A stretch of 64,000 nt of DNA, from NCBI GenBank assembly GCA_017429695.1, contig JAFROK010000034.1, positions 1-64,000 of the forward strand, read 5' to 3'. Below, piece by piece: positions 7,646 to 58,862 of this stretch (position 1 is its first letter; each line of letters begins with the position of its first letter). The notes below the pieces were generated by a model. It saw only the letters and a list, made by a program, of their open reading frames with translations, was not told where the DNA came from and did not search any database. The translations under genes and the position numbers were made by a program. Origin of the DNA: Clostridia bacterium (lineage in GTDB: Bacteria; Bacillota; Clostridia; Christensenellales; Aristaeellaceae).

Positions 7646-7651
7646 ATATAA

Positions 7652-9460: not shown

Positions 9461-9475
9461 CCAAAAACCTCCACA

Positions 9476-19813: not shown

Positions 19814-19842
19814 CGGTTTCACCTTCAAAAGAAATAAACTCC

Positions 19843-24177: not shown

Positions 24178-24530
24178 AGCGCCTCCGCTTGTTGTTTCAC
24201 TTCGCTTGATTGTACGCCGCATACCAGCGCAGTTTATATGATACCATTCTTTTTGGCAAAAGTACATATGAAATCGTTTGCTTCATTTGCCATGCTATCG
24301 CTTACTTTATCTGCTATACCATCATTTGCTTCGTTTGTTGTGCTGTCGTTTTGCTACGTTTGTTGTGCGTTTGTCTCATTTGGTGTGCCTGCCGATTCCG
24401 TTTTGCTTTTTGCTTGTGTCTTCCCTTTGGATTTATCTTGTCATATGCTCGCCCGGCATGGTATAATCCCGGCATAAGAAAAGCGAAACAGGGGTCTTTT
24501 GTACTGGAAACCGGGAAGAGGGGGTTCTTC
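24178..24530. promoter_or_regulatory. 353-base divergent spacer with tandem pyrimidine-rich repeats
   Basis: The spacer between the phosphate transporter and the c-di-GMP protein. Its middle (about 24260-24430) is strongly T/C-rich on the plus strand and holds near-identical 16-mers at 24328-24343 and 24353-24368 (GCT, then T or A, then CGTTTGTTGTGC), plus degenerate further copies. The right side has a good plus-strand promoter. On the minus strand, TATAAA at 24233-24238 could be a -10 for the transporter, but its -35 is poor. Confidence 0.45.
24438..24467 (+). promoter_or_regulatory. Sigma-A-type promoter of the c-di-GMP protein gene
   Basis: TTGTCA at 24438-24443 (5 of 6) and a perfect TATAAT at 24462-24467 are separated by 18 bases. 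Transcription would start about 55 bases before the ATG at 24531. Confidence 0.6.
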
Positions 24531-28437: not shown

Positions 28438-28489
28438 AAACACCGCAGGATTCCGCGGGTCTCCCCGTTTCATCCTGCGGTGTTTTTTG
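28438..28489 (+). terminator. Strong Rho-independent terminator between convergent genes
   Basis: A perfect 14-base stem, AAACACCGCAGGAT (28438-28451) with its complement (28472-28485), a 20-base loop, and a run of six T ending at 28488. It ends the c-di-GMP gene; its opposite face may help end the minus-strand operon that stops at 28510. Confidence 0.85.
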
Positions 28490-28509: not shown

Positions 28510-30039
28510 TTATTCAAACTGCGCAATCAGGGTAATATCCCTGTCCATGATGAACCAGTCCTCTATCTGGGTGCCATCCTCGAACACCCAGCCGGTGAAC
28601 GTCTTTCCTTCCACTGCCGGTTCTTCGATCAGGAACATATTCACCGTCGAATCGCAGGGGATATCGTATGTCTCCTCCTGGAGGCCTTCACCGCGGACGG
28701 TCATTTTGAACGTCAGCATCCCCAGCCGGTCCATGTTTGCATTGATCCATTCCCGCCGGAGATTGGTCCACTGCCGGATGTGTTCGATTTCTTCCTCAAG
28801 GCTGCGCCCCGTCATATCCAGTTCCGTCTTGGACGGACGCCATTTCTCATCGTCCCTCTGCCAGGAATCCCGGATAATATCAGCGGTCCGGTCCAGGATA
28901 CCGCCTTCCTTCACGATTTCCTCCAGCTTCGCGTCCAGCACCTGCCAGCGTTCCTCCAGCACCGTCCGGAACTCCGGCATGGTGCGCAGCTGATCCGCCC
29001 ATACGAACGTGGTGTTGTTGAACCCGATGTTCTGCATCGTTTCAATCTGCGCATTGCCCCAGCTTTCGTCAAAGTCCCATACCGGCCCGAAGTGCAGTTT
29101 GCCTTCGCTGCCGTCGGCCTCATAGCGCTTCTTGAACATATGCGCGCTGTCGGTCCGCCATGCATCGGCATTCACAGTGAATTCCATCATCCACCAGTAG
29201 TCCGCCAGGCTCTGCACGTCCACATACTCCCCGATCTTTTCCCAGTCACCGCTGTAGATCGCGTCCTCAGCCTTCTGGATATAGTCCCGGATATACTGTT
29301 TCTGGACATCGTTCTGATAGCCGTCCTCCGGATCAAAGCTGGGTTCCATGTTGCCGAGCTGCAGTCCCTTGGCAGTCTCGAAGGTGTTCACGCTTTCCCA
29401 GTCGTCCGGGCAGAACTCCATCAGGTACCCGCCCTGGATCTCCGGCAGTTCGCTGTTCTCTTCCTTCAGTTCGTCAATCGCCACCCGGTGCTTGCTGATC
29501 TGAACCTGTTCGCACAGATAGTAGGTCCCAATGTATTCGCCGTTCATCACCACATCGGCATACACGCCCTGGGTGATGTATTCAAGCCCCATCTGGTCCG
29601 CCAGCCACTCCGTCAGCCAGTTGCGCATCATACTGTTGTCGTAGTAATTGGCCAGCAGCACCCAGGTCTTGCTCTTGCCCATGCCGAACAGGTCCTGTTT
29701 TTCCTCAAACTTGATCTTGTAGGGATTCTTGGGCAGGTTCCAGGTGCCGTTGCCCCGGCCCCGGATATACTTCATCTTCAGGCCTGTCACGTTTTCCTGT
29801 ATAAAACGGCCCTCAAACTCCCCGCTGTATCCCTCCGGCACGGCGATGTTCATCGTACCGGTGCACTTATAGCTGTGGTCCTCGCTGTTGTGCAGCTTGT
29901 CAATCTCCGCCTGGCCCCCGTCAATGTTCAGGTAAATCACCGGCAGGTCCTTCGGCTGATAAACCGCTTCCTCCGCGCACGCAGCGAAGGCAACCAGCAG
30001 CAGCGCCGCCGCCAGCAGCAAAATCCAGGTTTTCTTCAT
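28510..30039 (-). CDS. cotH-like: CotH-family kinase-like exported protein
   Basis: A 509-residue member of the CotH family, whose spore members phosphorylate serines of coat proteins. A signal peptide or weak lipobox lies at residues 1-23. Family marks follow in order: IRGRGNGTWNLPKNPYKIKF, LANYYDNSMMRNWL, GEYIGTYYLCEQV, GYLMEFCPDDW, and the metal-binding region FGPVWDFDESWG. The last 60 residues are a Listeria-Bacteroides-type repeat (TGWVFEDGTQIEDWF), also found in the giant protein upstream. The start at 30039 (MKKTW) is preferred over an ATG seven codons earlier. It is the last gene of the exported-protein operon, 38 bases after the zeta-like gene. Confidence 0.8.
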   Translation of the reverse strand: MKKTWILLLAAALLLVAFAACAEEAVYQPKDLPVIYLNIDGGQAEIDKLHNSEDHSYKCTGTMNIAVPEGYSGEFEGRFIQENVTGLKMKYIRGRGNGTWNLPKNPYKIKFEEKQDLFGMGKSKTWVLLANYYDNSMMRNWLTEWLADQMGLEYITQGVYADVVMNGEYIGTYYLCEQVQISKHRVAIDELKEENSELPEIQGGYLMEFCPDDWESVNTFETAKGLQLGNMEPSFDPEDGYQNDVQKQYIRDYIQKAEDAIYSGDWEKIGEYVDVQSLADYWWMMEFTVNADAWRTDSAHMFKKRYEADGSEGKLHFGPVWDFDESWGNAQIETMQNIGFNNTTFVWADQLRTMPEFRTVLEERWQVLDAKLEEIVKEGGILDRTADIIRDSWQRDDEKWRPSKTELDMTGRSLEEEIEHIRQWTNLRREWINANMDRLGMLTFKMTVRGEGLQEETYDIPCDSTVNMFLIEEPAVEGKTFTGWVFEDGTQIEDWFIMDRDITLIAQFE

Positions 30040-30077
30040 TTTCACTCGGATCCTTTCCATGTGTGCTGTTTCGTTTT

Positions 30078-31037
30078 TTATGCGGCAGGCGCCAGTTCTT
30101 CCGCCTCTTCCTCCACATAAGGTTCGCCGAAAGCGTTGGTCATCGTCTTGAACGCTTCGTATACGTCCACCACACCCGCGCCGAAATCGAACGCGACCTT
30201 GCTGTTGATCAGCTGGCCGCCGCCCAGTTCACGCATCACGACGCGCGCGGCCGCTTCGTTGGGCTTGGCTTCCTTGAATTTTACCTTCACATTGTAGCCG
30301 GCTTCTTCAAAGGGCCGGATGTATTTTTCCATCAGTTCTTCCAGGTTGGTACCGACAATGGGCAGGATCGCGTTCGTGCCCTTCATGTCGCCCGCCAGGA
30401 ATTCCTGCACCGCTTCGTCAAAGATGTTCATACCCTCGAAGTGGATCGCGTCCGCACCGGCGCCGTGGCTTTCAATGTATTCCGGAATCTGTTCCTTGAT
30501 CATATCCGGATCCAGGATAAACGCGTTCATCGCGTTGCTGTCCGGGTTCACGATCCGGGTGGACTTACCGCTGGCCGGCAGCCCCAGCACCAGTTCCATC
30601 TTATACTCCCTGCTCAGTTCGCCGGTCGGCAGCTGGCTGTAAACAGCACTTCCGTCGTCCCTGATGCGTTCCACGGTCGCGGAGCCCAGCCCCAGGAACC
30701 AGCTCTTCAGTTCTTCCCGCAGCGCTTTGCGCTCCGGCGTATCGATCTCCGCGGTGTTGCCATACAGCGCCTTGTAGTAAGCGGACAGTTCATCCAGCTG
30801 CGCCACCACGTGATTTGCCTTCAGTTCCTCCATTGTCGGATAATCGCCGGCAATAATCTGCTGCAACAGCGCCCGGGCTTCGTCCGTGTCGATCATCGGA
30901 TGGTCCTCTGATACTTCCCAGGTCACAGGCTTTACGCCTTCCGACAGTTCCGGCAGCTGTTTTTCCTCCGCCAGGGCGCATCCCAACGCCAGCAGCAGTA
31001 CCAGGCACAGCGCCATTAGTTTCCGCATTGTCTTCAT
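30078..31037 (-). CDS. Exported zeta-toxin-like P-loop kinase
   Basis: A 319-residue protein with a clear signal peptide (cut after ALA near residue 23). Residues about 150-290 match zeta-toxin-type kinases: Walker A LGLPASGKST near 154-162, and the substrate-side acidic motif FILDPDMIKEQIPEY, which holds the catalytic Asp position. Classical zeta toxins phosphorylate UDP-N-acetylglucosamine in the cytoplasm and pair with an epsilon antitoxin. Here there is no antitoxin gene, and the protein should leave the cell. The N-terminal 120 residues are helical and unassigned; the C-terminus is acidic. GGAGG lies eight bases before the start. Its substrate is unknown. Confidence 0.75.
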   Translation of the reverse strand: MKTMRKLMALCLVLLLALGCALAEEKQLPELSEGVKPVTWEVSEDHPMIDTDEARALLQQIIAGDYPTMEELKANHVVAQLDELSAYYKALYGNTAEIDTPERKALREELKSWFLGLGSATVERIRDDGSAVYSQLPTGELSREYKMELVLGLPASGKSTRIVNPDSNAMNAFILDPDMIKEQIPEYIESHGAGADAIHFEGMNIFDEAVQEFLAGDMKGTNAILPIVGTNLEELMEKYIRPFEEAGYNVKVKFKEAKPNEAAARVVMRELGGGQLINSKVAFDFGAGVVDVYEAFKTMTNAFGEPYVEEEAEELAPAA

Positions 31038-31061
31038 AGATCATTCCTCCATCATATATAG

Positions 31062-32729
31062 TTACGGTGCGGTCTGCACAGCCACAATCCGTTCCTGCCC
31101 GTACGGCGCTTCGTATTCCGCTCCGATCACGCCGCCAAGGTTATTCTTAATGAAATTGGTCAGGATCTCACGGTCTGTTTCTTCAGATTCCCAGATGATC
31201 TTTCCGCCGTCAAAGGCAGTATGCCCGTCGCCATGGTCCACCATGACGTAGCTCAGGCTGGCCACTTTATAAATTTTATCCGGATCCAGCGGTTCACCGC
31301 CCACCAGCACGTTCTTCACGCGGCGCTCGCCTGCCACGCCGGTAAACATGCCGTCGTCATTCTTCGTGCAGGTGCTTTCGATGTATGTGTGAATCTCATA
31401 GCTCAACCCGGCCACATGCAGGAACGCACCGTTCTCCTCAGGCACCGCGCTCGCTCCCCATTCCAGGGCATCCAGCAGCTGCTGCCCGGTCACTTCAGCC
31501 ATCATCATCTTGTTGCCGAAGGGGAAAACCGCCAGCAGGTCATAGGCTGTAATCTTACCCGCCTCAATACTCGTCCGGATACAGCCGCCATTGGCAACGG
31601 CCACGTCCGCGCCGCTTGCCGCCAGGAAAGCGTCTGCTACGAAATCGCCCAGGTTCGTTTCCGCCATACGGATCAGGCGGATCGGCTGTCCGCTTGAATC
31701 CTTCGCTTCCGGGTCATCAATCGTCAGCTTCACAGCAGATGTACCGACCTCCGCGGAAAGCGTTTCCGTAACCCATGCGGATTTCTCCAGCATGAGGTCG
31801 TTTAATTCGTTTTCAATTCCCAGCAGTGCGGGGACATTCAAATCGTTATCCCATTTGTACAGACCGGTATCCACACTGCCGTCCTTGGCAGAAATCTGCA
31901 GCCAGCCGATGCAGGCCATCTTCGTGCCGCAGGCCTGGCGGATCACCGTTTCACCGTCCTTGTTCTTCATAACTACCTTGTTGGTGTCGTGGCTGTGCCC
32001 GTCCAGCACAGCATTGATCCCGTTCGTGTGTTCAATCACGTCGGAATACAGGTACGGCTTCACGGAAGCTTCATTCCCCAGGTGGGCAATCAGGAAAACA
32101 TATTGCGCGCCTTCCGCCCGGGCGTCGTCCACGGCCTTCTGAACCGCGGCATAGAATTCCGATCCGTCGCCGCCCTGGGTAAAGTCATAGATGAAGTTGC
32201 CTTTCTCATCCTGGAAATACCGCGGCGTGGAAGACACCAGTGTTTCCGGCGTCGACGCACCGACAAAGGCGATCTTCACCCCTTCAAATTCCTTGATGAT
32301 GTACGGGTCAAACACCAGTTTTCCTTCCTTGCGGAAATTGCAGCTGATGTAGGGGAAGTTTGCCGCCTCCGCCAGCTCAAAAAACCGGTCCATGCCATAA
32401 TCAAATTCATGGTTGCCCGGAACCGCCGCGTCATATCCGACAGCATTCATCAGTTCAATGGGCAGCATTCCCTGCGTCATCACGCCGATGGCTTCTCCCT
32501 GCACAGCGTCACCGTCGTCCACCAGCAGCACATGTTTGCCCCTCGCCTCTGCGGTATCCTTGATGGCCTTCAGGCCTACCAGCGTAAAGCCCTGGTCAAC
32601 TCCGCAGTGAATGTCGCTGGTAAACAGCACAAGCACGTCGTGCGTCAGCCCCTCCGCCGCTGCAAGCCCGATTCCCAGGCAAACCGCCAGAATCAGCAAC
32701 AGTCCCGCAATCTTCCGAATTCCCTTCAC
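31062..32729 (-). CDS. Exported 5'-nucleotidase / metallophosphatase (UshA-like)
   Basis: A 555-residue extracellular nucleotidase. The N-terminal calcineurin-like domain has its full metal set: FTSDIH, LLVDDGDAVQG, PGNHEFDYG, AHLGNE and DGHSHD. The C-terminal 5'-nucleotidase domain begins near ETNLGDFVADAFLAASGAD and includes AVFPFGNKM. A signal peptide covers about residues 1-26. The start chosen is the GTG at 32727-32729, with AAGGGG just upstream; a GTG 11 codons earlier has no ribosome site. It stands 20 bases after the protease gene and 24 bases before the zeta-like gene. It would release nucleosides and phosphate from nucleotides outside the cell. Confidence 0.88.
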   Translation of the reverse strand: MKGIRKIAGLLLILAVCLGIGLAAAEGLTHDVLVLFTSDIHCGVDQGFTLVGLKAIKDTAEARGKHVLLVDDGDAVQGEAIGVMTQGMLPIELMNAVGYDAAVPGNHEFDYGMDRFFELAEAANFPYISCNFRKEGKLVFDPYIIKEFEGVKIAFVGASTPETLVSSTPRYFQDEKGNFIYDFTQGGDGSEFYAAVQKAVDDARAEGAQYVFLIAHLGNEASVKPYLYSDVIEHTNGINAVLDGHSHDTNKVVMKNKDGETVIRQACGTKMACIGWLQISAKDGSVDTGLYKWDNDLNVPALLGIENELNDLMLEKSAWVTETLSAEVGTSAVKLTIDDPEAKDSSGQPIRLIRMAETNLGDFVADAFLAASGADVAVANGGCIRTSIEAGKITAYDLLAVFPFGNKMMMAEVTGQQLLDALEWGASAVPEENGAFLHVAGLSYEIHTYIESTCTKNDDGMFTGVAGERRVKNVLVGGEPLDPDKIYKVASLSYVMVDHGDGHTAFDGGKIIWESEETDREILTNFIKNNLGGVIGAEYEAPYGQERIVAVQTAP

Positions 32730-32749
32730 AAAACCCCTTCTTTCTTTTA

Positions 32750-34825
32750 TTATCTTTCCCACTTCGGTTCCACAGAGCCTTCCCAGGTAAACCCTTCCGG
32801 GAAAGTCATCGTCTCCCCGTCCCAGTGGATTTCAATCATTCCCAGCCGCATGGTCCGCATGAACATATCCCGCAGCTCATACTGGATATAATATATTCCC
32901 GCGGGCAGCGTAACCTCCGTCATTTCCAGCTGGCGGTACATCGTCAGCTCCGGGCCGCTGGCATACGATGTCAGGTCATCTTTCTCCTTTCCTTCCACCG
33001 GATACAGCAGCCGGTATTTCCGGCCCGCCACCATCGCCAGTTCCTCAACGCTTCGGCTCATCAGCGTGCTGTTATCGTCATATCCGTTCCAGATGCCGTA
33101 TACTTCATATTCGCTCGTTTCCCGGTCAATCTTCCGCCCGCAGCGCAGGATCGCGTTTTCCGAATTGATCTGGATCGGAATATTGTACAGCCGGAACTTG
33201 TCATCGCTCTGCACCAGGTCAATGCAGCAGATTTCCCCGTCAATGGCCGGCCAGTGCATCGGGTCGCTCGGCCGCAGCAACATTTCAAAATCTTCCGAAA
33301 ACTCAATGCCACAGTCCGTAATGCCCAGCCGCTCAATCTCGCCGGTTCCCTCGTTCAGCTTATACAGGCGAAAATACAGGTCATCCAGGTTCGTATTCGT
33401 GCCCTTGAAGCACAGGGCCGGCATACCGCTGCTCGTCATCTTTTTTTCAATGACCACCCGGAACGCATCAATGTCGTCAATTTCCGGCACCCGGTTCACC
33501 TGCTCATATACCCAGTCCGGCGCGGTCCATTCCGTAATCGCGTCCAGGTAGCTCAGGTAATAGGGCTCCGGAAAGTTCCTGGCATAAATATTCAGTTCGT
33601 CTGCCGTAAAGTCTGCCGGATAACAGAAGCTCAGTCCCCGCGCCTCGCTGCGGCCGGATCCGCGTGAAATATAAACCACCGTCTCCTGCAGGGCATTCAT
33701 CACCTGATCCAGGTAGTCCGTCTGAATATAGTTGCTCAGCTGCGGAAAATAAATCAGGCTGCCGAGGTCCCTCATGTTCTGGAGGCCGCTGCCGTATTCC
33801 TCCGCTTTGTAAATATACTTGGTGCAAAGGTTGGCCAGGCCGGGGGACTGTTTCATCGCATTGCCCACCAGCCGGAACAGGTTCCCGCAGGCGCTGATCA
33901 GCCCGTCAATTTTGGAAAGGTCGATCACCGACCAGGTCATCAGGGACTTGGCCATGTTGTCCGCCTCGTTGGCATACTTGACGGCCGTCATGTCGCAGAC
34001 GCACCGTCCCAGCCATTCGCCGTCCATTGTCGGATGATGAATCAGCGCCTGGAGCCAGTCCTGGAAGGCCGTGCCTTTCCCCGGTACGGTTTCCTCCGAG
34101 GCCACCAGCCATTTCGCATTGTCCCGGAGTGCCCAGGCCGTTTCAATGTTCGCCATCAGGCAGGCGTCGATGACGATGGTCTCAAACGTCACACCACAGT
34201 CATCCAGCGCCTGGTTCAGCTCATAGATATACATCTCATCGCCGTCATATAGTTCATCGATGAACATGCCGTAAGCGCCGTCGCCATGATCCCACAGCAC
34301 CAGGCAGTACTTTTTAGCCGGTGCCGTCTCCACACCCCAGCGGATAAAGTCCGTCAGGGTTTCCGGATCCGCCATGCTCTGCCGGGGCAGGGTTTCCATC
34401 AGCTCAAATCCATGAAAGGCTTCCCCTCCCTCGTCATCGGGCCAGAAGCTCAGCTGCCAGCGCTGAATGGCATGCGTGTCCATCTTCATATTCAGGCCTT
34501 CGGTATGCCATTTCCTTGCTCCGCCGGTTTCCAGCAGGATGTTCACCCGCTCAATATCCTTCAGCATCTCCGCCGGAGGGGTGTTTTCCTTTGAAAACAG
34601 CGGCATGTAGTCATATGAATACTGAACCTCCTGGATCTCTTTCAGGTTCAGGGATGCATAGGCATATTTGGATTCCAGGTCGGATCCGCAGAAATAGAGC
34701 AGCACCGTCCATTCCGCAATGTCCTCATCCGCCGATGCCGCCGGCGCGCTCTCCGCTGCGCACGGAAAGAGCGCCATGCAGGCCAGGCCGGCCAGGATCA
34801 GCATCAGCACCAGCATCTTTCTCAT
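32750..34825 (-). CDS. Exported clostripain-family (C11) cysteine protease
   Basis: A 691-residue protein with a signal peptide (residues 1-24, cut near AAES). The peptidase C11 core has YFCGSDLES near residue 44, the catalytic His in LVLWDHGDGAYG near residue 178 and the catalytic Cys in IDACLMAN near residue 220; ASEETVPGKG follows. C11 enzymes cut after Arg or Lys and often self-activate. The C-terminal 250 residues are beta-rich and unassigned. The ATG overlaps the stop of the giant protein gene by four bases (ATGA), which indicates translational coupling. The protease may process the giant protein; this is inference from position. Confidence 0.85.
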   Translation of the reverse strand: MRKMLVLMLILAGLACMALFPCAAESAPAASADEDIAEWTVLLYFCGSDLESKYAYASLNLKEIQEVQYSYDYMPLFSKENTPPAEMLKDIERVNILLETGGARKWHTEGLNMKMDTHAIQRWQLSFWPDDEGGEAFHGFELMETLPRQSMADPETLTDFIRWGVETAPAKKYCLVLWDHGDGAYGMFIDELYDGDEMYIYELNQALDDCGVTFETIVIDACLMANIETAWALRDNAKWLVASEETVPGKGTAFQDWLQALIHHPTMDGEWLGRCVCDMTAVKYANEADNMAKSLMTWSVIDLSKIDGLISACGNLFRLVGNAMKQSPGLANLCTKYIYKAEEYGSGLQNMRDLGSLIYFPQLSNYIQTDYLDQVMNALQETVVYISRGSGRSEARGLSFCYPADFTADELNIYARNFPEPYYLSYLDAITEWTAPDWVYEQVNRVPEIDDIDAFRVVIEKKMTSSGMPALCFKGTNTNLDDLYFRLYKLNEGTGEIERLGITDCGIEFSEDFEMLLRPSDPMHWPAIDGEICCIDLVQSDDKFRLYNIPIQINSENAILRCGRKIDRETSEYEVYGIWNGYDDNSTLMSRSVEELAMVAGRKYRLLYPVEGKEKDDLTSYASGPELTMYRQLEMTEVTLPAGIYYIQYELRDMFMRTMRLGMIEIHWDGETMTFPEGFTWEGSVEPKWER

Positions 34826-35660
34826 TTGGTGTTCCCTTCTGCAATCGTATAAATCAGCTTTCCGTTTTCATCCTCAGAGAAGGTGCACACCCGGTCGGTC
34901 ACTTCTTCGCCTTCGCGCAGCACATGTACCTCCCGGCCCTTCCGGTCGGTCATCTTCTCTTCGGTTTCCGCTTCTTCTGCCGTTTCCTTTGCCGCGGGCA
35001 GGATCAGCAGGTCAATGTCGTTGTTGGCCCGCACCAGGATCTCCGCCGGGCTCATCGATTGTTTCTTTCCGTCTTTCGCCTCTTCGTTTATGTCCGTTTC
35101 TCCTGTGCACAGGACTATAATGAACTCACAGTCTTCCTTCTTCATATCATCCAGGTACCGTGCCGCCTCAATGGCCGGTGATCCGCTCCTGTTGTCCGGA
35201 TGTGCAAACAGGAAGCCTTCCGTTTCCGGCGCGTCGCTTCCGCGGAACACCAGTCCCAGAATACCGATTTTGTGCTCGTTTCCGTTTACGCTGATCGTCC
35301 GGATCACATAGGGCATAAATACGTTCTCGCCTGCCTCATGGATTCCGTCCGTTCCGTCGTAGTATACGTTGGCGGCTGTCACCGGCGCTTCCATTTCGGT
35401 CAGTGCGATGCCGAGCGCAGTCTCGTCTCCGCTGTATGCGGTGAATACCGGCGCCACAGCGTCATGTTCAGTATCCAGGATCAGCGCAGCCAGCGCTTCC
35501 GCCGGGTTGTCATTTTCCAGAATCTGTGCCGCGTCTCCGGCCTGTTTCAGGTCAAAGGTACCAGTCAGTACCACATAATCCTTGCCGTACTGCTTGCGCA
35601 GCGCCTGGATCTTTTCGCTGTTGGCCTTCAGCATGTCCTTCAGGCTGATTTCTTCGTCCG
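34822..35660 (-). other. Pseudo-metallophosphatase domain of the giant protein
   Basis: This C-terminal domain lines up with the N-terminal domain of the adjacent nucleotidase by order and spacing. LKQAGDAAQILENDNPAEAL takes the place of DDGDAVQGEAIGVM, and HDAVAPVFTAYSGDETAL takes the place of YDAAVPGNHEFDYGMDRF. Then IGILGL lies where the nucleotidase has IAFVGA, and EFIIVLCTGE where it has QYVFLIAHLG. Every metal ligand seen in the nucleotidase (D, N, H) is lost. Confidence 0.6.
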
Positions 35661-56600: not shown

Positions 56601-58662
56601 TGGTGGACTTCAGACCCAGAATGACATGGTCGTAAGCGTCGTAGCCGATCGCGTACTTCGGATCATCGCTGACCAGTTTTTCCATATCTGAATCACGGTC
56701 AACGCTGTTCATGATCATTAGTGGTGCATCCGCTGTAATGGTTTTATTGGTCCGGATTCCGATCCGGGCATCACTGCTCAGCGGATCAGTAATGACCAGC
56801 GTTCCGCCGTTCATTCCGAGGTTTTTATATTCAGAATTGTAGCGGTTATTATCTGTAATCTTTGTGCTGCCGCCAATCTTTAGCGTACCTTCATTATGAA
56901 TGGCATAAACATTATTAGGAGAACTGTTGTATTGATTTCCCGTAATGTAAGCATTGTTTAGCGTCAGGGTAGCGTTCGGTGAAATATGAATCACGGAAGT
57001 CCGTTCCGTAGTGTTTCCGGTAACGGATCCGCCGTTCATCGTCACATTGCCGCCTTCGGCAATATAGATAGCGGCGCCGTCACTCGTGGAATAGTTGCCC
57101 TGGATATTGACATTGTTCAGGATCAGCGTTCCGGCCACATAGAAGGCACCGCCGGCATTCAGGCTGTTGCCGCCTGTAATGATTCCGCCTTCGCCGTTAA
57201 TCGTCAGCGTCGCACCGGCAGGAATGTAGAAATGGCCACCGTTGCTCGCCTTGTTCTCGCTAAGTCCCCTGTCCAGGGTATAACCGGCCATATTGAGCTC
57301 GTATCTTCTTCCGGAAGAGAGTGTCACCATCTTATCGTTGCCGTACAGGCCTAATGTATACCCAAACAGCGTAAATGAATAATAGTCAAGCAGCTTATTG
57401 GCCATTTTGGACCATTTGTAAGTTTCAGTTTCGCCGGATGCGGCGCCCAGCAGTGCTGTTTCGCCGGAAGCGGTGGCAGGAGACTTAGTCATCCGAAGAA
57501 CGCTTCTTACGTTTCGGACAGATTCGGTCACTGCTTCCTCAATAGTGATGGTATTCGTATTGGTCTCAGATGAGGTGCCTCTTGTCGGTTCGGTGTTTTC
57601 TGTTATCGGCTGCAGGTTGGTCGGCGTCGCATAGCCGGTTCCGTCTTCCGGTATCTCCTGCAGATCGGTCGGAGTGACAAAGCCGGTTCCATCTTCGGTC
57701 ACAACCGTTCCGTCAGTTACGGGGTTGGGATCTTCCTCCGGTTTTTCTTCAGTAACCGTGCCCGTTTCGGTTTTGGATCCCGTTTGGGTTCCGGTTTTCG
57801 TTCCGGCCTGGGGCTGGGTCCCGTTGTCGGTTCCTTTGTTTGTTTCGTTCTGGGTTTCGTTGTTGGTCCCGTCGTTGGATTCGTTGTTGGTGGTCTGATC
57901 GTTGGTTTCGTCTTTGATCTCGTTATTGGTTTCGTCTTTATTTTCGTCGTTGGTTTCTTTGTCAGCTTCGTCTTTTGTTTCGTCTTTGGTTTCGTCATTG
58001 GTCCCTTGATCGGTTTCGCTGCCGGTTTTTTCCGCCGGTGCTTCCTCTGTCAGGGTCATCACTTTGACCACATCATATACGCCGGTTTCGGACAGGTTGA
58101 AAGAGATCTTGTTCTGGTCAGTATCCAGTCTGGAAGAAATGCGGGTGGCCCGGTCCTCCGGTTTCTCCCCTTCTTCTTTGCAGTTCAGCACATAAGCGGA
58201 CAGTTTGCCTTCCGGATAGGTTTCTTTCAGTTCATTGATTTCCGGGTCCGTCATTTCCACCTGAATGGTGCCGTTCAGTTCGGCGCCGGTAAAGCTGTAG
58301 AGGGTATGGCGGATCAGGGTGGTTTCACTGGCTTCGATGTTCAGTACTTTTTCTGCGTCTTCGGTAAACGTCACCTTGTTCCCGGTACGGGCAACCGACA
58401 GCTGGGCATCCTCCGCCACCACGCCGGCCTCCGCCGTCACCTTCACCTGAACGCCGTCCACGTTAGTGATCAGCATATAGGGGACCGTTTCGGCTTCGCC
58501 CTGGTCTGAAGGCGTCACATAGCCGTCGGCAGCCTGTGTGTCCTCTATGGGAAGCGTATTATCGTTTTCCGCCCATGAAGCGGGAGTAATCGGGCTGATG
58601 GCAAGCATGAAAGACAAAAGCAGCGAGAGCCTGCGTTTCCTTCTTTGCCAGATCGTTTCCAT
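34822..58662 (-). CDS. 7946-residue exported multi-repeat surface protein
   Basis: One unbroken frame of 23.8 kb. In order: signal peptide (residues 1-31); a 180-residue domain; an Asn/Glu/Thr/Lys linker (about 214-314); four super-repeats of beta-solenoid plus Listeria-Bacteroides repeat (about 414-3050); a further carbohydrate-binding-like solenoid (3050-3280); a long tract of InlB B (Flg_new) repeats with seven BIG2 domains (3290-7520); a Pro-Glu linker (about 7535-7566); a fibronectin-like domain (7580-7650); and a degenerate nucleotidase-like domain (7670-7946). No LPxTG, SLH or choline-binding anchor is seen. AAAGGAG precedes the ATG. It is the first gene of the exported-protein operon. 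The likely role is adhesion or a cell-surface scaffold. Confidence 0.85.
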   Translation of the reverse strand: METIWQRRKRRLSLLLSFMLAISPITPASWAENDNTLPIEDTQAADGYVTPSDQGEAETVPYMLITNVDGVQVKVTAEAGVVAEDAQLSVARTGNKVTFTEDAEKVLNIEASETTLIRHTLYSFTGAELNGTIQVEMTDPEINELKETYPEGKLSAYVLNCKEEGEKPEDRATRISSRLDTDQNKISFNLSETGVYDVVKVMTLTEEAPAEKTGSETDQGTNDETKDETKDEADKETNDENKDETNNEIKDETNDQTTNNESNDGTNNETQNETNKGTDNGTQPQAGTKTGTQTGSKTETGTVTEEKPEEDPNPVTDGTVVTEDGTGFVTPTDLQEIPEDGTGYATPTNLQPITENTEPTRGTSSETNTNTITIEEAVTESVRNVRSVLRMTKSPATASGETALLGAASGETETYKWSKMANKLLDYYSFTLFGYTLGLYGNDKMVTLSSGRRYELNMAGYTLDRGLSENKASNGGHFYIPAGATLTINGEGGIITGGNSLNAGGAFYVAGTLILNNVNIQGNYSTSDGAAIYIAEGGNVTMNGGSVTGNTTERTSVIHISPNATLTLNNAYITGNQYNSSPNNVYAIHNEGTLKIGGSTKITDNNRYNSEYKNLGMNGGTLVITDPLSSDARIGIRTNKTITADAPLMIMNSVDRDSDMEKLVSDDPKYAIGYDAYDHVILGLKSTIRFYCSPGGASAGTMEDVSAVCGGAYILPESGFSFGKDGFIGWKASNETQQKQPGDKIPVNSTMIDLTALYKVKYVGAKKDDTGNYKEEYCEDYTSVTEDVSTRWSDDWYVASDNITLGNRISIPENTTVNLILCNGVTLRAAKGIYVPAGSNLHIWGQQDNGGILLIDSVDRNNAGIGGNANTAGGSIYIHGGTVTATGGEGAAAIGGANGKSVSQIIISGGIVNATAGNGAAAIGGGSGAGAKVEITGGEVNATGMGAGAGIGSGAAASSGDISIKGGKVTATGGQNGGAGIGSGAFQSVGTNGSTIEISGGTVTATGNGGGAGIGGGAKANAASVRFIGGATNANSVGYGTGASEANVYMTWSDATKKEIQVTVTTYNATGVQFGAEFYDTNRSNIFYKKTYKNMTNLNGSDLKYFSKEIESWDKLQTLLKNAEADTELTLQLTMSLTATEKDTELRVLSGTKVILDLNGCDLNRNLTERTDGGHVLIVEKDAWLTIRDTSPKQDGKITGGDAIGLGGGVFVLGHLTFESGIITGNKTITGSGGGVGVNNSAEFTMTGGSITNNESYSGGAIGINDGAVVTIKGGTITGNTAGTTYGEGGAGAIYARTGCTLDISGGTIKNNVSKTINGDGVYVFPEVNLFLSGNPEIDCLYIGKSRTSYNTELQETKIQVKESLGAAASIAVNADRSPTMLSPVILSKELPSVEDGKYFHALRNEFCTGVDEQDRLVLGEKATIYFETEGGSGTMDPMYAAAGTYFTLPECTFTPPAELNFAGWTVNGDTVLKKPGDRITAVDNTTLTAHYGMPYEDENGKEQSAYIYHVVKSGDTTWTDAWYVIDGKMNFNQRIEIQGAVKLILKNGCELIVPEGIHVGSGASLTIYGQPGQTGRITAHGKTLNALIGGNQNKDKAGTLIVNGGVIDAKNTGEAVAIGGGHTGLGGTVIINRGTVDATGGYMSPGIGWRITDNSGTVTITGGTVTATGGQYAAAIGNGGSTNGGQVEISGGTITAVGGAGDEGNSTNGGAGIGGGYQGDPGMIDISGGTITAEGRNGGAGIGSGGQGFYGGTITITGGNITAKGSNGGHGIGNGVNTKYPSSVTLSWTKETRKGMRISADTYIQGIKLENYFMTLPDKGIHLPETKLSGIDGKIIVPAEGIYNWETLQDAITNAENGAELKVLADCTAEAGQTALLVKEGQDITIDLQGHSLDRNLKNKTAEKDGCILINNGSLQLVSRGKAGVLSNGRNTDHGGGIVNNGTLVMQNIDIKNCTSDRMHSKGGAIYNKSGSLTMISCYIKDCSATLAGGGIVMSKGSLYLDDCSITNCKTTEEGGYGGGIFMEGATTATLKTVSIWQCISYGNGGAMYVTGNSTVDISGESYFDQNKARYDKENKTGGNGGGFCIVNATVTMNGGGISNNEAGLSGGAVYLNQHGALELRGTLIDRNAALGTDGIGGVDVHDEYAELKISGNVRIFDNEGPNKDCDVYLIKGQKIKLPGRLGEEARIGITTQEKPTNEKPVEFTTVLTPAEHKTHFFSNDNTFIVDVKASGGAVLGYPVNVTCHYGANIGSDVTEQAVKGNEFAFPKAEDFNSNIRFKTWLLGKNDPKWIDPETTGSMVLTEDIYLTAIYSVRYVTANGSPLWMDCCFVDPKTNIWVSGGNYGHAVYGTVTIEDRISTGTDENLILCDNANLSAKNGIGVGEKQSLKIWAQEGQSGSLTAGTASHNGAAIGGSQSGFSGGVQCGTIEINGGHITAESEKYYSAAIGGGYYGNGGKITINGGNVTAKARMNGAAIGGGENGNSGNITINGGVVTATGDNYVGAAIGGGFMGSVDKITINGGTVYANNGALRGAVIGAGYCGTGGIITITGGYIRVNGKDKTANVSGIGSDSDNSSDVLKISGGDIEISKIQYKGIKSTNIILTWTDESKNTMRLKSPSYAGTVTLERPFVNADDGMDILMPGKVSSFSSINGKTLKPCDTIHIYNWKTLQAVIDGAGQGQVTAMLEADITAEADDNAIQISAKKDIILDLNGHTMDRGKYQAGQDFDGFTWWSNGNVITVATTAKLTIQDNSEGQTGRITGGACSSPGGGIRNFGELTLKSGSVTGNTSFKGAGGIYMGTNATFKMTGGSITRNVAYEGDGGAIYNNGGLVDIHGGTIRENYAGEKGGAIYNTCWLVIQGGMITENQSNGAGGGIYQCKNTRSVLGVNGMAVIRGNISDPLLKTESNAMLEAGGRIAIGEKLSSSALIGVTVETSQYPYTFTSGLKQYGGSETSFFSDDPRYLVSLNGSGEAVLGQGAVITFMSSRPVAGETMPSKTVALGATYPLPGCSFTPPEGMSFSGWLVNGSGDPVKEGSITITGDTTLTAQFANSSYEVYVGNVKVTDENKGDILKDGSAKYNPATNTLTLNNIQISAKKESGNFNPHYAGIYSKDDLIINGKNISIDTDAFGIYTGGSLTLDGADITIDVHKAEGLPGYAMPNGIKTEGACVIQDSRVTTNGGYNGIDNDESLTIRSSRVTVSCQYSPIYSSENILITGESTRVSAECPEGGYSSAIQAGDGYALTIEKPLDVTTPEGGHVDTDSGSYLVDKNESTINSAVIMKNTAVIGVTVEPEEVTVPARETVQLTAHVEPADAAHPEVTWTTSNASFATVDQTGLVKGVSQTGDGEYVTITATTVESKFKATSKVFVTAALTKYSITLIQPESGGTLGCAVESAAPGDNVQFIVTPDEGYRLKSLYYTTGGTKKGISMETYILSMPQNAIKVGAEFEKIECKYFVRFDANGGRVPEGGEGMPDMEFTSYLQKQKLSKNIYYIPGGTFTGWLGSDGKYYRDEEEVSKLTQRNDDTIIMYAQWNNPIYHITLDNKNPDIAEVTLNKTEAQYSDAIYVTVKMKQDGWHVNEASYTCNGETKPMENLYGVYAFAVPAGDVTVTMSFAANTYTVSFDPGVEEGVTGVMEDQVFVYGAAATPLYENKFQRENCQFDKWLDSETGKTYGDKEAVQNITNVIGGHVTLVAQWKSYKVTITFMNEDQEYAKITQDYGSLITPPKDPVKDKMQFDGWNPELPKRMPATDMTYTAKWKTPEYTITYDANGGTFSSNGSGMLTVTQQINTVINWETPVREGYTFLRWNATVPVLMPEKDLSFTAIWEQNEYYIFGKTNGNGAIRWEPEGPVPMGTRIDVNFIPDEYYKVKSFYYEYKTSQGRTTLSYPQINTDTDGKQSAQFTMPAGHITMHAVFEKIPPTGVKLYLDDQTEVTPDTNVTVYKGDSTVLYAVVAPAGVYQKVNWVSSDPTVAKVSPSGVVTGLERGTCTITAKSDINESISASVQITVDNHPGTEHSLTIVPAEYGNVTIQSAVTTSTKPNHYKMGDIIRFKVAPDDHCSLTTLSYEYTEPNGNRINKIIEPVAVSSELIYELIMPNTSVIVTPVFAQNSYTYTFINEGNVYAAITQRYGTAVNPPANPSRTGYTFSGWDPSVPGKMLEDKTFTAKWTPNKYTIIFDTAGGSTIPSMTLDYGAKVTSPKDPTRTGYTFKGWDTEIPDTMPANDITVHARWEINQYTITFDLKNGQPAITKTQDYNSVIVIPDDPVWEGHTFLGWIYGEIPARMPARNIRFAAQWKVNQYTVIYRSEGALYRRQTYNYGDAVTLPANPTRTGYTFTGWEWSPDSSKPETMPSHNVTANATWTPKKHTIAVNKTGNGTGTVTLNPDIGDNRKYDTGEKVTFTAVPNEKNRLTNLSYTVDGNSTVIDLNEKPYTFTIPATDAATITVNANFEQIPVTGVTLDQSIAYLTLDTANPRTLTLQATVQPKDAFNSAVTWKSTRFDGNQEVSGNDVATVDANGVVTPVGVGHTTITVSTAETWLDKEGNAQHYTASCLVIVTEPEKTSYDIETAVSGQGRVIADRTDAEPGTMVTLQVIPGEGYHLMDLYWREKQSTRSWNIPMDAPYTFEMPEADIIVHASFAIDEHALIFDPANGDNPIYVVGEYGTAVTKPADPQRTGYTFMGWDGEIPATMPAEDILFTARWKINRYTITFNANGGSAVPAITQDYGTKINPPQDPIRTGYTFLGWEPAIPATMPADDMTVKAIWRINRYTITFDTDGGTLIPAVELDYGKKIERPLDPEKTGYVFAGWVPSIPATMPDYNMTIRAMWTALEYPITSFCDMTQGTVGTSVQEAHYGETVTVTALPYGGYVMNELRIYTENETLTWNKVTGEDGEYTFVMPAAPVTVYAIFGEVTQPEYNITVIAGTGGRALVDHTEAKADSEVMLTAFPDEGYSLEEVSLTYTPEGETQQVIVVIDSLGEEGGTCVFHMPKANVVVNATFTPKQYTIRFFKDDNTPYAAITKNYNETIVATEKPADPTKEGYDFIAWNQAIPTRMPAKDLAITALWKAEQYTITFITDGGSYVAPIQVDFGNSVKDAVKDQVTIKSGFVFKGWKLVIGESLDNLPTTMPNHDIDLKAQWEDDGETEQTYTVVFNANGGKFEGGKETLSYTKIAGESFEVPQPLKPGYNWAGWDPEFSGKMPAHDVFTFAKWRPEEHTISLQTSGNGTVSLYPENTDGEIYYYGDTITIYATPDTGYEISAMTYTANGITSDISQDEKPYSFTIPAANLHEILISVVFTAIPVTGIMVIPDTVSMLPGEELMLQAVVAPEGALQTVTWTSSDANVATVDLNTGKVTAVATGECVITATTVAKNANSAELTATCTVVVEGEHNVSVASGITGGTVTVNPTSALRGKTIQVTPTPDTTEYRLTRLTYKPEGATTPTDLLAESEEPYSFLMPNADVTVDAEFTQNLYTLTFDLGYGGQVVTEQKAFGDPITPPQTDDRTGYTFLGWSDIVPATMPAKDLSFAARWEINRYTITFDTKGGSYIAPITQDYATPVNAPDQPTKEGYTFTGWDKDIPPVMPAANQTITAQWTEKATPTQYSITFNANGGTFADATGYKRITQEAGTTVTVPTEWSPSRTGYTFDGWQDVPETMPTADTTVYAKWTPVGYTITCDTTGNGSLTLVPANTGAAQYHYGDIVTIYATPNAHNKLTGLSYTYGTTTTEIDLNSEKPYTLTMPAANVTITAVFEAVVPTDIQLNRGSVTVGRGTTFTLYAIVMPEDAPQNVTWSVSGPDNLVTVNENGVVDVATGAVAGEYTIKAAVSETVYATCFVAVISPYTLTTQKTGLGDVTSTPAGKALAGETVTVNAVPDTAHDYHLDKLYYQAEGFATTTDLMANPSDDYSFTMPAANVTISAEFVQNQYTLTFDLGYKVITEQKVYGASISAPAETELVREGYTFLGWDDVILPTMPAKDVTYTARWKINQYTIIFNTDGGSYIAPITQDYGTKITAPANPQKNGNIFDGWNPAIPGTMPAENKTITAKWRPVEATQCTITFDANGGTFTPNYHDPVRTFVGITGTSVTKPNNPTKTGFTFSKWDPIPDNDLKIKETDQVFSAQWTANDYGIQKGVMTNGNNISWLPERGGPYAYQYPYQYDETITVYPEPSNGYRVTSMTYQASGYATQTDLTAESEKVYTFRMPAANVTLNATFEPIPGENVVMSRGSVTAKPGSEFQLFAYVEPREALQTLTWASSDETVATVDQNGKVTTHTEGICRITAKATGGASAYCLVAVEGAYKVNIASGLSYGSITADRPEAYPNETVRVNPKPATGYRVKTLYYAYHADGVDKQVNLVESDVEDIYSFVMPAANVTIHAEFEPREYNITIQIAKPEKGTVTTNTGNTAPYGESVTLTATPRDYHYQLSTLAYLPKGESESINLMPAPYTFSMPAKDVTVMAAFAPIPVEEVTLKLDSTQLKVGDTLGLTATVTPAAALEQNVTWQSSDTSVATVNVNLADSKNATVTALATGDVTITAMSADGVHSDTCTIKVRRNIPYVDAGGNTGSSAPCEMLTGNTTELNITGGGWYAVEGSVNIPEQLLVKGGHVNLILMDGASLTLPAGLKIENGALTIWSQSGGSGRLSAVASTAEDASDDAAAISNSGELTINGGIISVRGIGSGAGIGGSGSVTINGGHVSAYHGGTNAAGIQGSSITLNWANKNRMSVYADSYSGTVKLVKEFKSLNPYTIYPKTPDGETTDPAKLAGKMLLPCGTLVTVTYIPEYTDPAVVAHTEQAEQTGEKEYPLPENMFPVPDGMKFAGWKWQTSTDTEAQFALPGSMISVPEALTITATFGYPIVLKTTGNGTVTPSKLAGKSGEEITLIATPEKGHKLKEAPVITPEQSPRPGTNQNEYTFTMPASGVEVKSEFIPYTYTVSFDANVPDGRTAEGTMEDQTFQYGETKRLQPNGYTVEGYDFKGWQFGEKTLLDYQRVTNLTEEDNVTLTLKAIWEKSSYPINIISTHGSVTTDPNAYGTYEDTITLHITPDTGYSLNLLNWTKSGRRGLLAAILGEPIKDKDADGNYIFTMPASGVTISALFTANDYTVKFDPNAKDAEGTMEDQAFVYDAEEALNPNTFTRPGYTFEGWSTNEKGTGDNFSDGAVVKNLAESGTVTLYAQWTPIRYEIKVIAATSDKGEVRGSAWAYPATASVGDTVQMIIAPDKGYRTGWVINVNSTESPYMRPDADGIYRFTMPAGEITIGVTFLRYTYDIIFDPNGGTGEMEPVETYYSVEETLPANTFTRKGYRFLRWNLAADGTGLPFSDGDTVKNLSDIDFDEVTLYALWEPDEFTITFDTDGGNEIEPITQKYDTEITKPEDPVKTGYTFTGWVPEIPEKMPAEDMTVKAQWKINQYTISFDTDGGTPVDPITQDYDTEITPPEDPTKEGHTFNGWTPPIPTRMPGMDGTSIAQWIINQYTIHFNTDGGNEIPDITQDYGSEITAPDDPTRTGYIFEGWDQKIPEFMPVTPATGLWIRALWAAIKPAPAPEPTPEPEPTPEPEPEPTPEPEPEPTPEPEKKEGAQAEKPVLRRRGTKTIDIYTRPGEEYSIDGGKTWQDSGHFTGLKEGTTYRIIARMKETDTTLAGKPSEILYVRTYEGGGASVPVAVAAGAVVPAAQADEEISLKDMLKANSEKIQALRKQYGKDYVVLTGTFDLKQAGDAAQILENDNPAEALAALILDTEHDAVAPVFTAYSGDETALGIALTEMEAPVTAANVYYDGTDGIHEAGENVFMPYVIRTISVNGNEHKIGILGLVFRGSDAPETEGFLFAHPDNRSGSPAIEAARYLDDMKKEDCEFIIVLCTGETDINEEAKDGKKQSMSPAEILVRANNDIDLLILPAAKETAEEAETEEKMTDRKGREVHVLREGEEVTDRVCTFSEDENGKLIYTIAEGNTK
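35964..36056 (-). repeat. Pro-Glu-Thr linker repeat
   Basis: The DNA repeats a GGTTCGGGTTCGGG-type unit that encodes PEPTPEPEPEP, an extended spacer between the InlB-repeat tract and the C-terminal domains of the giant protein. Confidence 0.9.
36090..48550 (-). repeat. InlB B (Listeria-Bacteroides) repeat and BIG2 tract
   Basis: Dozens of roughly 65-75 residue units carry YTITFDTDGG, ITQDYGT, GYTFTGWDP and IPATMPA. They alternate with TYTFxMPAANVT-type beta units. Seven BIG2 (Ig-like) domains are spaced through the tract, each with VTWxSSDxxVATV followed by G.CTITA or a close variant. The unit order looks shuffled rather than strictly tandem, as expected for old duplications. Confidence 0.85.
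49500..57420 (-). repeat. Four super-repeats of beta-solenoid modules
   Basis: Each super-repeat opens with a strand that ends in LDLNGHxxDRxL, followed by a solenoid of NGGxxxITGNxA turns. Next comes one Listeria-Bacteroides repeat (GTMxxxxAxxGxxYxLPxCxFTPP), then WYVxDGxxxxxxRI and a second solenoid rich in INGGTVTATGGxGAAAIGGG. Copies begin near 57420, 55340, 53130 and 50670; the fourth lacks the second solenoid. Confidence 0.75.
57720..58020 (-). repeat. Low-complexity Asn/Glu/Thr/Lys linker
   Basis: The DNA repeats a TTGGTTTCGTC-type unit that encodes strings such as NDETKDETKDE, NNETQNETN and TGTQTGSKT. It is a flexible, highly charged spacer between the N-terminal domain and the first solenoid of the giant protein. 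Confidence 0.85.
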
Positions 58663-58804
58663 GTGCTTTCTGCTCCTTTGTTACGGATTCTTCAATCCAT
58701 GGTACAAACGGATAATTGGTTACATGTATACAGAGTAATTTTATCACATGTAAGGCGGAAAAGTCCATAAAAACATACTGAAAAGTACATATAAAACATA
58801 CGAA

Positions 58805-58834
58805 AGCAGGCCACGCGTTTCCGCGTGGCCTGCT
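58805..58834 (-). terminator. Rho-independent terminator of the LktA-like gene
   Basis: A perfect 13-base stem, AGCAGGCCACGCG (58805-58817) and its complement (58822-58834), with a TTTC loop. On the minus strand it is followed by TTTCGTATGTTTT. It lies 28 bases after the stop of the upstream adhesin gene, so the giant protein gene must have its own promoter in 58663-58804; no convincing -35/-10 pair was found there. Confidence 0.8.
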
Positions 58835-58862
58835 GACCTTGGTTTTTGTTTTTCTTTGGAGA

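Follow-up and report, generated by a model that had tools for sequence, protein, structure and literature searches.

Zeta and PezT toxins (PF06414) are P-loop kinases that act as 3'-kinases of uridine diphosphate N-acetylglucosamine (UDP-GlcNAc), and the zeta toxin contacts this substrate through Thr118-x-Arg120-Thr121 (PMC3062530). The same fold can work outside the cell that makes it: AvrRxo1 is described (PMC5087710) as a secreted zeta-fold 3'-NADP kinase in which the ATP-binding residues are kept and the UDP-GlcNAc-binding residues are lost. Kinases placed outside the bacterial membrane raise a question of energy, ATP being thought scarce there. Here we analyse a 64,000-nucleotide stretch of a Clostridia bacterium genome (GCA_017429695.1, contig JAFROK010000034.1; hereafter the window), where the gene of an exported-looking zeta-fold kinase stands beside that of an exported 5'-nucleotidase, in one row with the genes of a giant surface protein, a peptidase and a CotH-family protein. 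We tentatively favour the view that this row combines an extracytoplasmic phosphotransfer and nucleotide-clearing pair with an adhesin-protease pair transcribed together with it. Our literature search, which left most subscription papers and preprints outside its scope, turned up no earlier account of zeta and a nucleotidase as an exported pair.

Five genes for apparently exported proteins

The window covers the initial 64 kb of a contig 132 kb long, contains no N and belongs to a 3.03-Mb draft genome that is 88% complete. Five consecutive open reading frames (ORFs) occupy 28510-58662 on its minus strand. They encode, in order of transcription, a giant exported repeat protein (34822-58662, 7946 aa), an exported C11 (clostripain-like) cysteine peptidase (32750-34825, 691 aa; Pfam Peptidase_C11, 7e-30), an exported 5'-nucleotidase/UshA-type metallophosphoesterase (31062-32762, 566 aa; 5_nucleotid_C, 4.5e-37, and Metallophos, 1.5e-9), an exported zeta-like P-loop kinase (30078-31037, 319 aa; Zeta_toxin, 3.9e-7, 30.2 bits against a cut-off of 22.3) and an exported CotH-family protein (28510-30060, 516 aa; Pfam CotH, 4e-38). 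A first, sequence-only reading had named these families, which the Pfam matches bear out, and had described an operon-like row of minus-strand genes with a 4-base overlap, which the coordinates and junctions confirm: the overlap is that of the giant and C11 genes. Its gaps of 20-40 bases hold in part. The nucleotidase and zeta genes are 24 bases apart, the zeta and CotH genes only 17, and the C11 and nucleotidase genes overlap by 13 bases or, if a later GTG at 32729 is the start, leave a gap of 20. Export, also part of that reading, agrees with the signal-peptide-like hydrophobic segments that we see by eye at all five N-termini.

Upstream, a terminator-like hairpin (58805-58834, minus strand), made of a 13-bp stem and a T-rich stretch, separates the operon from the gene of a second giant. 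The surrounding segment (58780-58860) folds at -33.8 kcal/mol (z -6.8); a simple terminator pattern scan missed the hairpin. A promoter-like site (58738-58767, 9/12) precedes the giant gene, and a hairpin that is terminator-like by eye follows the CotH gene (28441-28482, minus strand), its inner short stem being found in the pattern scan. Taken alone, the scans are barely above chance: between 28300 and 35000 they gave 6 terminator-like sites against 5.0 expected and 7 promoter-like sites, most of them on the plus strand, against 3.1 expected. Together, the hairpins, the promoter-like site and the tight junctions fit a single transcription unit, and we accept the operon as likely.

The nucleotidase-zeta pair

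The zeta gene has a recurrent partner. A collection of 84,980 species genomes was scanned with a five-row zeta alignment, by means of two peptide patterns, and gave 46 loci, labelled Clostridia for the most part (below, L, G and C numbers denote loci, genomes and contigs). At 15 of the 46, a nucleotidase on the same strand is either fused to zeta (nine loci: L025, which lacks most of the nucleotidase, L031, L032, L033, L034, L044, L058, L060 and L061) or adjacent to it (six: L029, L042, L045, L050, L056 and L067). Measured as tblastn distance, a nucleotidase match lies within 350 bp of zeta at 14/46 loci, on the same strand in all 14. Chance alone would place about 0.15 nucleotidases less than 2 kb from any of 46 zeta genes, a figure based on 62 PF02872 matches in 75.6 Mb from 28 same-genus genomes, the window's own included, and on applying this density to loci of other families too. 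At L045 the match starts 699 bp off, in an ORF whose overlap with zeta is 4 bp and which has no signal-like start of its own; at three further loci the nucleotidase is 2.8 to 6.7 kb away, on the opposite strand in L035 and L066 and on the same strand in L047. Among relatives of the window's genome, G038 and G030 carry zeta fused to the nucleotidase C-terminus. Gene order varies, zeta coming first in L042 and L045. On a tree of 45 zetas (the 46 loci minus L066, at a contig end, and L069, plus the window), the fused state needs 6 changes and the adjacent state 7, and therefore the coupling arose or was lost repeatedly.

These counts carry the marks of the search. Two of the five seed rows are fusions, and although the patterns lie in the zeta domain, ascertainment bias is possible; relatives devoid of the patterns are missed. 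The 46 include one weak match (L069, 31%) with no signal-like start, near copies (L026/L028; L048/L050/L067), four records identical with genomes of our other sample (L033, L036, L061 and L066 are G038, G005, G030 and G003) and metagenome-assembled genomes labelled Atopobiaceae, Synergistaceae and Selenomonadaceae, which may be binning errors.

Both partners carry catalytic motifs. The nucleotidase contains SDIH, DGD, GNHE, AHL and GHSH followed by the C-terminal domain, and it resembles UshA and the ecto-5'-nucleotidases (PF00149 + PF02872) in two-domain architecture, metal-site motifs and extracytoplasmic location. It differs from them in its tight operon or, elsewhere, C-terminal fusion with a zeta-fold kinase, and none of its matches to 14 NCBIfam models reaches the cut-off of the model. 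In the window's zeta protein, a family-specific N-terminal region of about 110 aa accompanies a Walker A motif (GLPASGKST), D176/D178, H199/E201 and R265/R269. Conservation in the 45 sequences is nearly complete: D176 and E201 are found in 45/45, K158, D178, R265 and R269 in 43/45 each, and H199 likewise in 43 to 45. D176 would correspond to Asp67 of the toxin (PMC3062530), an equivalence placed by motif order, without structural superposition. No convincing relative of solved structure was found for the family by sequence.

The zeta proteins also look exported. A hydrophobic 12-residue segment with a mean hydropathy of at least 1.9 occurs within the first 60-odd residues of 41/43 zeta ORFs, a crude measure that leaves out the contig-cut L031, L034 and L066 and, in fusions, reads the start of the nucleotidase; the two ORFs below threshold are L027 (1.6) and L069 (0.5). 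By eye, about a dozen homologues have a lipobox-like Cys, and some are fused to surface-type domains, a C-terminal LysM in L049 and Big_2 in L045 and L046. Compared by description only (PMC5087710), the family resembles AvrRxo1 in its zeta fold, in apparently acting outside its producer and in having an ATP site without the UDP-GlcNAc site. AvrRxo1 is a type III effector, whereas here we deal with signal-peptide- or lipoprotein-like proteins of gut bacteria. To our knowledge, AvrRxo1 has no nucleotidase partner.

How far is this family from the toxins? Like Zeta/PezT it belongs to a P-loop Pfam family in which Walker A, DxD and HxE come in the same order, and its G030 member scores 53.5 bits with Pfam Zeta_toxin. 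Unlike Zeta/PezT it has an export-like N-terminus and a fused or paired phosphohydrolase. The pattern [TS]xR[TS], which would cover the TxRT contact, is found in 0/45 sequences, the segment being placed by motif order without an aligned PezT or zeta toxin sequence. In the window's operon, moreover, no antitoxin gene (epsilon/PezA) was found: there is no non-overlapping same-strand ORF of at least 40 aa among the four smaller genes, and one 57-aa ORF follows CotH. A classical zeta toxin is unlikely given the export-like start, the missing TxRT motif and the lack of an operon antitoxin gene. These same observations bear on another candidate role, in which the nucleotidase-zeta protein would be an antagonistic effector, exported or held at the surface and acting on neighbouring bacteria in the manner of polymorphic toxins. 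Zeta kinases do figure among the effector domains that PMC12419801 names for polymorphic and allied toxin systems, and the zeta loci L025 and L038 hold genes that resemble NHLM-type exporters by sequence likeness (the family model was scanned in G026 only). Against an effector stand the missing TxRT-type motif, the lack of a small neighbouring ORF at the window's locus, and the lipoprotein-like or, once, LysM-bearing homologues; we consider this role improbable.

Other phosphohydrolases beside zeta

Nucleotidases are not the only phosphohydrolases at these loci. Signal-bearing DHH/DHHA2 (inorganic-pyrophosphatase-like) proteins, of a family that is usually cytoplasmic, are encoded 18 bp upstream of zeta in L026 (8641-9714) and in its near copy L028 (7735-8811; assigned by likeness to L026, not by its own Pfam scan), and 9 bp downstream in L030 (3132-4325). 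In L045 and L046 a HAD phosphatase domain is part of the zeta protein itself (Big_2-HAD-zeta), and genes for SpoIIE proteins overlap zeta in L047 or lie 3 bp from it in L056. In all, a nucleotidase, DHH or HAD partner is present at 19/46 loci, or 20/46 if SpoIIE is counted. The Pfam scan covered 27 proteins picked by eye, namely 14 zeta ORFs plus 13 neighbours, and partners at unscanned loci may be missed. One further neighbour has its own interest: in L040, a 761-aa protein with a Nif11/NHLP-like leader (7403-9688; weak Pfam match, E 0.0056) is encoded 87 bp upstream of an exported, lipoprotein-like zeta.

That the recurrent partners found are phosphohydrolases is also what the main rival explanation would predict. 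Here, zeta would not be a kinase but a module that binds nucleotides or hydrolyses ATP and, with a nucleotidase, pyrophosphatase or HAD enzyme, strips extracellular nucleotides of phosphate and nucleosides (phosphate salvage). A Na+/phosphate cotransporter gene (22345-24267) about 4.2 kb from the operon end speaks in its favour. However, the presumed catalytic Asp and the other kinase residues are nearly invariant, beyond the needs of binding alone, and no match to the window's phosphate transporter is listed at the 46 zeta loci, so we do not count such a transporter as a member of the system. We regard salvage by an ATP-hydrolysing zeta as rather unlikely; a toxin role or phosphorylation of the giant ranks lower.

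According to the phosphotransfer reading, which we prefer, the zeta domain would work outside the membrane and pass phosphate to a small acceptor. This is probably other than UDP-GlcNAc; candidates are nucleotides, sugar-nucleotides, surface sugars and scavenged metabolites. The linked phosphohydrolase would clear the nucleotide or phosphate by-products, recovering nucleoside and phosphate. The lumen of the Golgi offers an analogy, as nucleotidases there clear the by-products of transferases. The sequences themselves show the genes, their export-like N-termini, the catalytic motifs and the recurring pairings; the substrates and the direction of the phosphotransfer we infer. The pair may be an unrecognised route of phosphate handling outside the cell, and a zeta-fold kinase that looks exported in many gut Clostridia, with repeated ties to phosphohydrolases of different folds, makes a testable case of an extracytoplasmic kinase, with clear substrate candidates.

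The giant protein and its peptidase

The giant runs from a signal-peptide-like start through an acidic/Thr-rich linker, a beta-helix-type region, Big_2 domains, InlB-type repeats and a P/E-rich linker to a degenerate C-terminal domain. Scanned in two halves with Pfam, it shows Beta_helix_3 (PF18889), Big_2, Flg_new and Flg_new_2 repeats, with 6 stretches of Big_2, 24 of Flg_new and 15 of Flg_new_2 (InlB-type) at E <= 0.01.

Its C-terminal domain of about 270 aa (34822-35634, minus strand) is a newly recognised feature. Pfam gave no match to it at E <= 0.01, and phmmer against the PDB found nothing relevant (best E 1.3). In seven same-genus genomes, however, it matches the N-terminal part of signal-bearing proteins of about 770-800 aa (E 4e-25 to 5e-34; 29-32% identity to five of them). 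The one of these proteins that we scanned (L103) matched 2',3'-cyclic-nucleotide phosphodiesterase/5'-nucleotidase models below their cut-offs. A profile of the three giants that bear the domain (window, G000 contig 37 and G030 contig 118) aligned by hhalign with the operon's nucleotidase family at a probability of 94.5 and E 8e-8, in the one comparison made. Judged by these alignments, the domain is homologous to the metallophosphoesterase catalytic domain. In an alignment that also held five nucleotidases, the motifs DxH, GNHE, xHGG and GHDH are intact in five of the 770-800-aa proteins and replaced in 3/3 giants, in which the Asp of GDxxQG is retained. Because four of the five metal-site motifs are lost in all three, the domain is probably a pseudo-enzyme deprived of its two-metal ligand set. 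We reject an active phosphoesterase at this end on the same replacements, and envision that the dead domain probably persists because it binds or anchors.

The adjoining C11 peptidase has its His motif (HGDG, from residue 180) and Cys motif (DAC, from residue 220), and thus shares the catalytic core of clostripain and PmC11. It differs from them in a C-terminal region of about 290 aa that has no Pfam match and in its genetic linkage to giant surface proteins. This linkage recurs. Close C11 genes (E<1e-140) number 11 in 61 genomes, four of them, the operon's included, in the window's genome, and a giant, counted as a homologue of either giant within the stretch fetched, is near 9/11. It directly adjoins the C11 gene in 6/11: in the window, in G030:C118 with the same 4-base overlap, in G017:C5, in G025:C124, in G000:C8 (divergent) and in G012:C9 (C11 upstream). 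At G000:C31:79632 one ORF separates the two. Among six cases from other genomes, counting L032, five involve a protein of the second-giant type and one (G030) the window's giant type. Because this adjacency recurs, we infer that the C11 peptidase would probably mature or trim the giants after export. No LPxTG motif was found in the window's giant, and the dead phosphoesterase end together with the giant-C11 linkage points to a testable step in which giant surface proteins would be matured or anchored.

The second giant is the upstream neighbour of the operon and lies outside it. Its C-terminal 1711 aa are encoded in the window (58863-63998, minus strand) and its gene continues past the window in contig C31 to 78359 (L022), for an exported protein of 6498 aa in all; the last 1706 aa have no Pfam match at E <= 0.01. 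A homologue also opens a row of genes in G026:C57 (L145, 8693-19998), followed by a radical SAM/SPASM-type protein, two NHLM-type bacteriocin exporters (TIGR03796 above its cut-off, TIGR03797 just below) and a C11 peptidase.

CotH, an apparent addition

The CotH-family protein shares the CotH Pfam domain with the Bacillus spore-coat kinase and differs from it in its signal-peptide-like start and in its company, as will be seen below. Its Asp-rich motifs NADAWRTD and WDFD are present. The catalytic Asp of B. subtilis CotH is D228 (PMC7821199); no solved CotH matched the window's protein by sequence. Around its nearest orthologues (63, 63 and 53% identity, in G008, G030 and G019), stretches of 20, 12.7 and 17.3 kb respectively are free of matches to the giant, C11, nucleotidase and zeta, and at the 46 other zeta loci tblastn found nothing that matches this CotH (E <= 1e-4). 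The window's genome has four other CotH-domain genes. Apparently, then, CotH is a lineage-specific addition to the operon.

The sequence-only reading had proposed a larger role, an extracellular system of phosphorylation, dephosphorylation and processing with the giant or surface glycans as its target; for the giant, this would mean that CotH and zeta phosphorylate it while the nucleotidase and the protease counteract or process it. The proteins do share an operon and apparently a compartment, the giant does bear a phosphoesterase-derived domain, and the C-terminal 60 or so residues of CotH (28510-28700), like those of its close orthologues, resemble by eye an InlB-type repeat, the giant's own repeat class, which Pfam does not detect in CotH. 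A weak link comes from G010 (L147, G010:C3), where about 7 kb separate a distant CotH homologue (34%; 846-2339) from a C11 gene (9194-11344) on the opposite strand, both near a contig end. Against this model, CotH stands apart from the other families at the loci just described, the recurrent partners of zeta are phosphohydrolases, and the zeta-fold kinases whose substrates are described in PMC3062530 and PMC5087710 act on small molecules. In addition, the giant has no Ser/Lys/Arg-rich stretch of the CotB/CotG type, with at most 10 Ser, or 14 Ser+Lys+Arg, per 40 residues. We found no support for kinases acting on the giant, and judge this model very improbable.

Two pairs in one operon

Because CotH is unmatched at the 46 zeta loci and its nearest orthologues stand apart, we reject the idea that the five genes form one conserved system; relatives split the operon in three, giant-C11, nucleotidase-zeta and CotH. 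The first reading had named a lack of co-occurrence in other genomes as grounds for giving it up; such a lack is seen for CotH but not for the two pairs, which recur. We propose that the operon would consist of these two independently recurring extracytoplasmic pairs plus the lineage-specific CotH.

Do the two pairs belong together? The operon could have arisen by chance, as unrelated genes for exported proteins gathered behind a single promoter, with only the pairwise associations being meaningful. CotH, unlinked at the loci examined, would fit this, and in 0/5 other same-genus genomes with zeta are giant, C11, nucleotidase and zeta found together. Yet L032, a record from a different species, has a second-giant-type protein, a C11 peptidase (55%) and a nucleotidase-zeta fusion consecutively and ordered as in the window, the genes being 107 and 30 bases apart. 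In G038 a single gene, for a TPR protein, separates the nucleotidase-zeta fusion from a giant, and in L025 the short fusion is about 9 kb from a giant C-terminus, the intervening genes resembling the NHLM-type exporters of G026. The association of the two pairs is recurrent but uncommon, and we consider mere accretion unlikely, if less so than salvage.

Several observations weigh against our preferred phosphotransfer reading and its adhesin-protease partner. The nucleotidase would consume extracellular ATP, which is awkward for a kinase partner. No phosphohydrolase partner is seen at 26/46 zeta loci, at the boundaries examined; among the 13 Pfam-scanned neighbours only 4 are phosphohydrolases, the other 9 being surface proteins with dockerin, LRR, Ig, SH3, peptidoglycan-binding or choline-binding domains, a TPR protein, a Nif11-leader protein and one without a match; and the SpoIIE protein of L047 probably faces the cytoplasm. 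Zeta homologues occur in just 5/44 other same-genus genomes (one of these homologues is partial and another is divided between contig ends), so the nucleotidase-zeta pair is accessory. L153, a clear zeta homologue from a relative (96 bits) that served as a yardstick, shares DPDxxKxxIPEY and HxE with the window's zeta and also has no TxRT; thus, the absence of this motif separates the exported family from UDP-GlcNAc kinases, not from all PF06414 proteins. Moreover, matches to the Pfam zeta model, mostly weak and short, turn up in 61/61 relatives and 14/14 control genomes, so that what justifies the family name is the longer match of the window's protein, together with the motifs in common with L153. 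As to the giant-C11 pair, about 6-7 kb separate the two genes in G000:C37 and G026:C57, and no giant was found in the fetched stretch of G030:C126 or G010:C3 (2/11 close C11 genes; the G010 contig stops 0.9 kb beyond its C11 gene, which limits that negative), nor in that of the more distant C11 genes of G033 and G011.

A wider view is more speculative still. Gut and rumen Clostridia may harbour a widespread, unrecognised extracytoplasmic phosphotransfer system made of an exported, often lipoprotein-like zeta kinase and phosphohydrolases whose folds are unrelated, wired in some species to giant proteins. In repeated, independent events zeta would have been joined, by fusion or by shared transcription, to metallophosphoesterase 5'-nucleotidase, DHH pyrophosphatase-like, HAD and possibly SpoIIE hydrolases, the hydrolase pulling the phosphotransfer forward or recycling the nucleotide, and one class of giants would bear the dead phosphoesterase as a binding domain. 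In any case, the family suggests that proteins matching a 'zeta toxin' model can be other than toxin-antitoxin components.

Genomic surroundings

Downstream, a plus-strand gene converging on the operon (24210-28412) encodes a LacI-type ligand-binding domain fused to GGDEF and EAL domains of cyclic di-GMP signalling. Two minus-strand ORFs antisense to it (24441-26351 and 26415-27548) have no Pfam match and are treated as spurious. The Na+/phosphate cotransporter, which includes a PhoU domain, is divergent from the GGDEF-EAL gene. Farther away, G+C content is 37-45% over positions 1-22000, against 49-60% elsewhere in the window; this region carries Wzz/ATPase, sugar-transferase and LytR-family genes of a polysaccharide cluster and was possibly acquired horizontally. 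Beside the polysaccharide genes, a minus-strand ORF of 1985 aa (13871-19828) shows a marginal RHS-repeat match, below the cut-off.

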